Shown here one piece after another: positions 13,347 through 13,480 of a DNA stretch of 64,000 bases. The notes under the pieces were generated by a model. It worked only from the letters and a program-made list of their open reading frames with translations. It had not been told where the DNA came from and ran no database searches. Source of the stretch: Rhea pennata (taxonomy: Eukaryota; Chordata; Aves; Rheiformes; Rheidae); the NCBI RefSeq assembly GCF_028389875.1, contig NC_084668.1, positions 21,257,493 through 21,321,492 of the forward strand, written 5' to 3'. Each line of letters opens with the position of its first letter. Position 1 is the first letter of the stretch. A program made the translations under genes and the position numbers.

Positions 13347-13480
13347 AAACTGCAGCTTCAAGAAAAGGAAATATGCACGCTTTGTCAACAGAGAGTTTAT
13401 CCAATGGAATGCCTAGTTGCAGACAAGCAGAATTTTCATAAATCATGTTTCCGCTGTCACCACTGTGGCAGTAAATTAAG
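13347..13480 (+). CDS. XIRP2: XIRP2 dual-frame exon: LIM domain N-half in frame 0, long-isoform tail in frame +1
   Basis: The acceptor is TTGATTCTAG (AG at 13345-13346) and the donor is TTAAG|GTAAGA (GT at 13481-13482), giving 134 nt. Read in frame 0, as when joined to exon 585-718, it begins [15 protein letters not shown] and supplies six LIM zinc-ligand positions: Cys codons at 13374 and 13383, His at 13437, and Cys at 13446, 13455 and 13464. The spacing is C-x2-C-x17-H-x2-C-x2-C-x2-C. Joined instead to the giant exon, which carries one G over, it is read [10 protein letters not shown] ... CRQAEFS and stops at TAA 13439-13441, a 31-residue tail. That tail matches the human long-isoform ending EAAAPRQGNM ... 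GRQAEFS (from memory). Both readings therefore look real. The frame-0 product resembles LIMA1/EPLIN and the known short XIRP2 isoform. Confidence 0.93.

Follow-up and report, generated by a model that had tools for sequence, protein, structure and literature searches.

A splicing choice of non-triplet length can make one stretch of DNA code for two polypeptides, as at INK4a/ARF. For XIRP2, the gene treated here, an earlier report of the mouse short isoform is said to be that of Francis et al. in 2015.

Wagner et al. (2023, eLife; PMC10259482) described that exon 8 of mouse Xirp2 is read in two frames, which overlap but differ. In that paper both proteins were demonstrated, and their locations in the cell differ. 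An antibody directed at the alternative reading of exon 8 detects the long XIRP2 at the cuticular plate and the junctions, and the short XIRP2 is present in stereocilia and reaches actin gaps via its C-terminal domain. The long mouse protein is numbered through the alternative frame (V3255, NP_001077388.1). A one-base change that makes a stop in the short frame (L396*) is silent in the long frame (V3255V), and the L396* allele was reported without nonsense-mediated decay (PMC10259482). Mouse exon 8 starts at residue 394, so that L396* falls on its third codon in the short frame. In the tail frame, V3255V falls on the third residue. Both positions agree with the frame model used here. Counting from the printed residue numbers, the long mouse XIRP2 should end at residue 3283. 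In the methods of PMC10259482, the repair template differs by eye from the guide at a second base beyond the intended change; the mouse protein as printed agrees with the guide.

According to work cited in PMC7652395, skipping of the longest Xirp2 coding exon yields a form that is needed for stereocilium morphology. In zebrafish, xirp2a and xirp2b have two short exons after a giant Xin exon, and they make long isoforms with Xin repeats and short isoforms with LIM, the short exons being joined for the short form (PMC3280289). The long/short arrangement is termed evolutionarily conserved there. The reported likeness of the zebrafish genes to the locus described below concerns the isoform layout. 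The available text of PMC10227054, PMC7494909 and PMC5005036 contains nothing further on the frames. When DNA and peptide strings of the dual-frame exon were searched in the literature, the one paper matched was PMC10259482.

A survey of non-triplet dual coding describes 54 events in C. elegans with at least 60 recoded nt (PMC13247117); the string 'xirp' is absent from its main text. As in that class, one stretch of XIRP2 gives two polypeptides by a splicing choice, whereas the alternative segment of XIRP2 is a 9.2-kb exon.

Exons and reading frames of XIRP2 in Rhea pennata

The window, which is the whole stretch of 64,000 nt that was analyzed, contains the 3′ half of XIRP2 of Rhea pennata. 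The assembly (1.27 Gb in 180 contigs) has at least 150 matches to the keratin family PF02422, in large clusters, and contigs the size of microchromosomes, such as C26 (7.7 Mb) and C29 (5.4 Mb), as fits a bird. The features are listed in Table 1, together with LIM exons found on other contigs.

Table 1. Features of the XIRP2 locus and of related LIM exons (positions are those of the window unless a contig is given; a slash marks an exon boundary)
Feature	Position	Strand	Description
XIRP2 exon before the giant exon	585-718	+	one frame open only; AG before, GT after
Giant exon with Xin repeats	1445-10664	+	9220 nt (3n+1); 3073 codons plus one G; Pfam Xin PF08043
Extra nucleotide G	10664-10664	+	moves the next exon into the tail frame
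Dual-frame exon (mouse exon 8)	13347-13480	+	134 nt; first LIM half in frame 0; donor AAG/gtaaga
Dual-read stretch	13347-13438	+	92 nt; with G10664 codes the long-isoform tail (31 residues)
Tail-frame TAA stop	13439-13441	+	its T is also the wobble base of the zinc-ligand His codon of LIM; mouse position identical
Last coding exon	14468-16061	+	second LIM half, followed by the C-terminal domain of the short isoform; stop at 16061
Intact LIM exon, XIRP1 locus	C2:6122686-6122562	-	125 nt; starts in phase 0 and ends with two spare bases
Last exon of the XIRP1-locus LIM pair	C2 from 6121473	-	1081 codons open
LIMD2-like LIM exons	C26:3755484-3756350		named by eye from solved-chain letters
LIMA1-like LIM exons	C29:4013582-4014252		named by eye from solved-chain letters

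The exon before the giant exon has ANTAMNEEF...AKQAK as its sole open frame, and ends at a codon boundary (phase 0) with the donor AAG/GTCTGT. Its protein, ...AKQAK/KLQLQ, corresponds to mouse ...AKCMK/KLLVQ as printed in PMC10259482. In the numbering of that paper, with the giant exon as exon 7, this would be exon 6. It is common to both isoforms. The giant exon, which is left out of the short isoform, is bounded by the acceptor ...CCCTAAAG/ATTG and the donor CAGTG/GTAAAT, and Pfam Xin was detected in it in 17 stretches (E 3.3e-171).

When position 718 is joined to 13347, an open LIM piece of 44 residues is read. The two spare bases of this exon join the last exon as AG/CTTGGG, and the LIM reading continues. 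Pfam LIM (PF00412) was detected on the joined short-isoform protein with an E value of 3.5e-11. When G10664 is joined to 13347, the tail of 31 residues is read, and then TAA. The third frame of the exon holds stops.

The preliminary description of this DNA had claimed a phase-0 exon that joins 13347 in frame 0 to give a LIM domain, and this is borne out by the boundaries, the translation and the Pfam result. It had also claimed that the giant exon leaves one nucleotide, which leads into the tail and its stop; the coordinates and frames were confirmed. The start of the range that it gave for the dual-frame exon, 13347-13441, was correct, while the tail stop ends at 13441 and the exon itself at 13480. 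The identification of the gene as XIRP2, with a switch from Xin repeats to LIM, agrees with the mouse match and with PMC10259482.

A giant exon of 3n+1 length precedes a phase-0 LIM exon, so that its inclusion shifts the frame. XIRP2 of the bird very probably possesses an alternatively spliced giant exon whose frame change acts as an exclusivity switch, both junctions being presumably used in the bird as well. With the giant exon out, the dual-frame exon would be read in frame 0 and, together with the last exon, would give LIM and the C-terminal domain. With the giant exon in, it would be entered one base out of phase and would give the tail and the stop. An XIRP2 chain would have either the actin-binding Xin repeats or the LIM/C-terminal mechanosensor part, and never both.

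The frame of the giant exon runs on past the donor to a stop at 10670-10672 (GGT AAA TAA, Gly-Lys-stop), and five A[AT]TAAA sites are present in the intron. These would fit a long isoform that ends in the retained intron, with the second frame of the next exon open by coincidence, as 31-codon open frames are in 18-37% of random codings. However, the mouse numbering and antibody results (PMC10259482) place the long protein in the exon-8 frame, and the stop of that frame is identical in mouse. An end of the long isoform in the intron is thus highly improbable.

With respect to the dual-coding class of PMC13247117, the alternative segment of 9220 nt leaves a remainder of one on division by three, and 92 nt are open in both frames, as compared with a threshold of at least 60 nt. 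The switch had been called an unusual design, which is fair as a description; it is nevertheless published and of a known class. The arrangement is real in the bird but already known: it was published for mouse (PMC10259482), and the long/short layout is reported for zebrafish as well (PMC3280289).

Orthology to mouse XIRP2

In all XIRP2 comparisons, the sole second species was mouse, as printed in PMC10259482. Mouse XIRP2 was matched by the exon before the giant exon, by both LIM exons and by the C-terminal domain. In a tblastn search against three loci, the 44-residue LIM piece matched with an E value of 7e-19. The LIM pieces were 79.5% and 95.8% identical to those of mouse, and the C-terminal domain, compared one against one, showed 30% identity (529 aligned columns, E 5e-43). 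These sequence matches, which are far above chance, indicate that the gene is the ortholog of mouse XIRP2. No match to the N-terminus of mouse XIRP2 was detected at E<=1 in the 10 kb upstream of the window, and the exon at 585-718 was the only upstream exon found.

An exact XIRP2 23-mer had 0 matches each in public viral and genome contig collections. The LIM protein gave 7 pattern matches in the viral and 24 in the genome contig collections, and the giant-exon protein gave 12 in the viral collection; none of them was confirmed.

In PMC2478706 (2008), chicken, and probably turkey too, is described as being without Xin-beta, which is XIRP2. Against that statement on chicken and turkey, an intact 3′ half of XIRP2 is present in a bird at positions 1-16061 of the window. 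In a gene table of chick hair cells in PMC6855842 (2019), LOC772075 appears with (XIRP2) beneath.

Divergence of the two frames between bird and mouse

The first 108 nt of the dual-frame exon align without gaps with the printed mouse exon 8. In mouse, too, the two frames are open, and the tail ends at the identical stop codon. The published mouse arrangement is the same in the bird, down to the stop codon: gene, exon, the two frames, stop position and the outcome of Xin repeats versus LIM all agree with Xirp2 exon 8 (PMC10259482), whereas the nucleotides differ at 15 of 93 over LIM codons 1-31. By parsimony, the two species suggest that the overlap is older than the parting of birds and mammals. 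The 15 differences are distributed over LIM codon positions 1:2:3 as 5:3:7, as compared with 3:3:13 in 102 nt of printed mouse coding DNA outside the overlap (Fisher p=0.30).

PMC13247117 compares wobble conservation between single- and dual-coded regions. Here, synonymous differences between the bird and the printed mouse DNA were counted at degenerate codons with identical residues. Inside the overlap, 3 of 22 such codons differed. In the five printed exon-8 codons past the tail stop the count was 4/5 (Fisher p=0.009); in all printed codons outside the overlap it was 9/28 (p=0.19), and in two printed pieces of exon 9 alone it was 5/23 (p=0.70). The low rate in exon 9 shows that the LIM region is slow to change even where one frame is used. 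Low synonymous divergence was rejected as a proof of dual coding, since the p value of 0.009 against 5 codons fades to 0.19 against 28.

The openness of the tail frame was assessed by random synonymous coding. The frame was open for at least 31 codons with a probability of 0.18 under the codon usage of the gene and 0.37 under uniform usage, and its first stop fell exactly at the observed place with probabilities of 0.13 and 0.18, respectively. With this chance openness of 18-37% and an open frame in the LIMA1 exon also, openness was likewise discarded as a proof of dual coding.

If the tail is a functional peptide, the 92 nt would be under protein-level selection in two frames. We give this somewhat less than an even chance. 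The tail is identical between bird and mouse at 20/31 residues, near the 23/31 of LIM, its stop is identical, and the contrast of synonymous differences before and after the tail stop within exon 8 points in the same direction. However, neither the outside codons as a whole nor exon 9 alone reproduces that contrast, and the tail matched no Pfam family at E<=0.001. We also simulated the mouse sequence from that of the bird under a constraint on LIM only. At the outside rate, the mean tail identity was 17.7/31, and at least 20 identical residues were obtained with a probability of 0.21 (codon usage of the gene) or 0.17 (uniform); the tail stayed open with its stop kept in 0.11-0.20 of the runs. 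With the codon-change rate set to 0.5, the tail identity had a probability of 0.014, so that the identity is improbable under LIM-only constraint if the neutral codon change is at least 0.5 (P<=0.014). The outcome of the simulation hinges strongly on the assumed rate. Thus, the evidence is mixed: its direction favours some constraint on the tail, which two species cannot prove.

The 92 nt had been described in advance as constrained at all codon positions. This was not established, in view of the synonymous counts (3/22 versus 9/28), the chance openness and the open LIMA1 exon. The comparison of synonymous sites that had been proposed along with it was carried out for bird and mouse only; it did give fewer differences inside the overlap than outside, at p=0.19.

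The tail stop

The His codon CAT (13437-13439) and the AA of the Lys codon together make the TAA of the tail frame. The preliminary claim that this overlap fixes the wobble base is right as arithmetic, but with CAC in place of CAT the tail would meet another stop after no more than 11 further residues. Therefore, the long protein does not depend on this exact stop for its termination. At the same position, the LIMA1-like and LIMD2-like exons have His-Ile and His-Asn with CAC. Thus, it is the His-Lys pair of XIRP2 that makes the stop possible.

As a rule, an mRNA is spared from nonsense-mediated decay if its stop lies within 50-55 nt of the last junction. The tail stop is inside this limit, as 39 nt separate its end from the last junction; a stop placed upstream of about codon 28 is calculated to fall outside. 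The second frame might then be merely held open, with a peptide that is not conserved, because a stop no farther than about 50 nt from the last junction spares the giant-exon mRNA. We regard this as unlikely. In mouse, a stop at the third exon-8 codon, whose distance to the junction far exceeds 50 nt, was reported without decay (PMC10259482), so that the rule may be weak here. Since even this much earlier stop was reported without decay, avoidance of decay is not clearly the reason for the place of the tail stop.

For any variant in the first 92 nt of the exon, the effect on each of the two frames should be considered. The arrangement is important for studies of hair-cell repair, because the LIM part cannot be freely deleted without touching the long isoform.

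LIM exons of the EPLIN class

The solved chains nearest to the LIM domain of XIRP2 were EPLIN 2d8y (E 5.8e-35) and LIMD2 2lzu (E 4.9e-31), the best two of 13 matched at E<=1e-5. Xirp2, Lima1 and Limd2 are placed in one class in PMC3305314. Among the solved sequences that matched, those of LIMA1 (EPLIN) and LIMD2 are the closest to the LIM domain of XIRP2. The LIMA1-like exon is 134 nt long and starts in phase 0, as in XIRP2, and both the LIMA1-like and the LIMD2-like exons share the 3′ boundary with the XIRP2 LIM exon. As to the 22-residue Eplin motif expected after the LIM domain in the EPLIN class, XIRP2 has a stretch of 19 residues at that place, which aligns in part with the EPLIN and LIMD2 chains.

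The +1 frames of these exons differ. In the LIMA1-like exon the frame is open for 42 codons, whereas in the LIMD2-like exon it closes at codon 27 (in the XIRP2 register). The second frame of the LIM exon at the XIRP1 locus closes at codon 23 of its own. Since one of the three paralogous exons is open, second frames that stay open are not unusual in this family of exons. The second frame of LIMA1 is not known to be used, and neither LIMA1 nor LIMD2 is known to have a giant exon. Since the LIMA1 exon matches in length and phase, these comparisons suggest that an EPLIN-class LIM gene gained a giant exon in the intron before its LIM exon.

LIM exon pair at the XIRP1 locus

A second Xin-repeat gene, with an open frame of 2588 residues, is present on a separate contig (C2). 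It was named XIRP1 by elimination, because the gene in the window matches mouse XIRP2. Its giant exon carries its own stop, with AATAAA shortly after (by eye). Therefore, the long form of XIRP1 needs no second frame.

About 6 kb downstream of this stop, on the identical strand, an intact pair of LIM exons was found, with each of the eight zinc-ligand positions in place as judged by eye. Outside its LIM end, the last exon of the pair showed no real similarity to the last exon of XIRP2 or to the mouse C-terminal domain, and in 33 kb of the locus no upstream exon matched the N-terminus of mouse XIRP2. Pairwise identities were calculated among the LIM domains of the XIRP1 locus, XIRP2 and LIMD2, with LIMA1 left out. 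The XIRP1-locus LIM was identical at 34/59 positions to that of XIRP2 in the window and at 32/59 to that of LIMD2. Since these values do not settle its origin, its kinship to XIRP2 rests on position, strand and exon phases.

The pair may belong to a LIM isoform that has gone unreported, or else to a LIM gene of its own. A literature search on XIRP1, Xin and LIM domain gave, among the matches listed, no title that deals with a gene of this kind, which does not prove it to be unpublished. One conceivable history, which we consider rather doubtful, is that the layout of giant exon and LIM exons predates the split of XIRP1 and XIRP2; the two paralogs would then have met the conflict of Xin-repeat and LIM products in separate ways. 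XIRP1 would stop in the giant exon, near an AATAAA, and keep its LIM pair, at least in this bird, and XIRP2 would have gone on splicing into the LIM exon and evolved a selected tail in the shifted frame. If the pair is expressed, it would be a further avian LIM protein, and it could trace the layout back to the ancestral Xin gene.

Other features of the window

In the 64,000-nt window, no RNA family was detected by Rfam at the gathering threshold. A GC-rich island lies at about 26000-30000, with 53-55% GC (2-kb steps) versus 30-42% elsewhere in the window. It has long open frames on both strands, and is perhaps the CpG-island promoter of the next gene.
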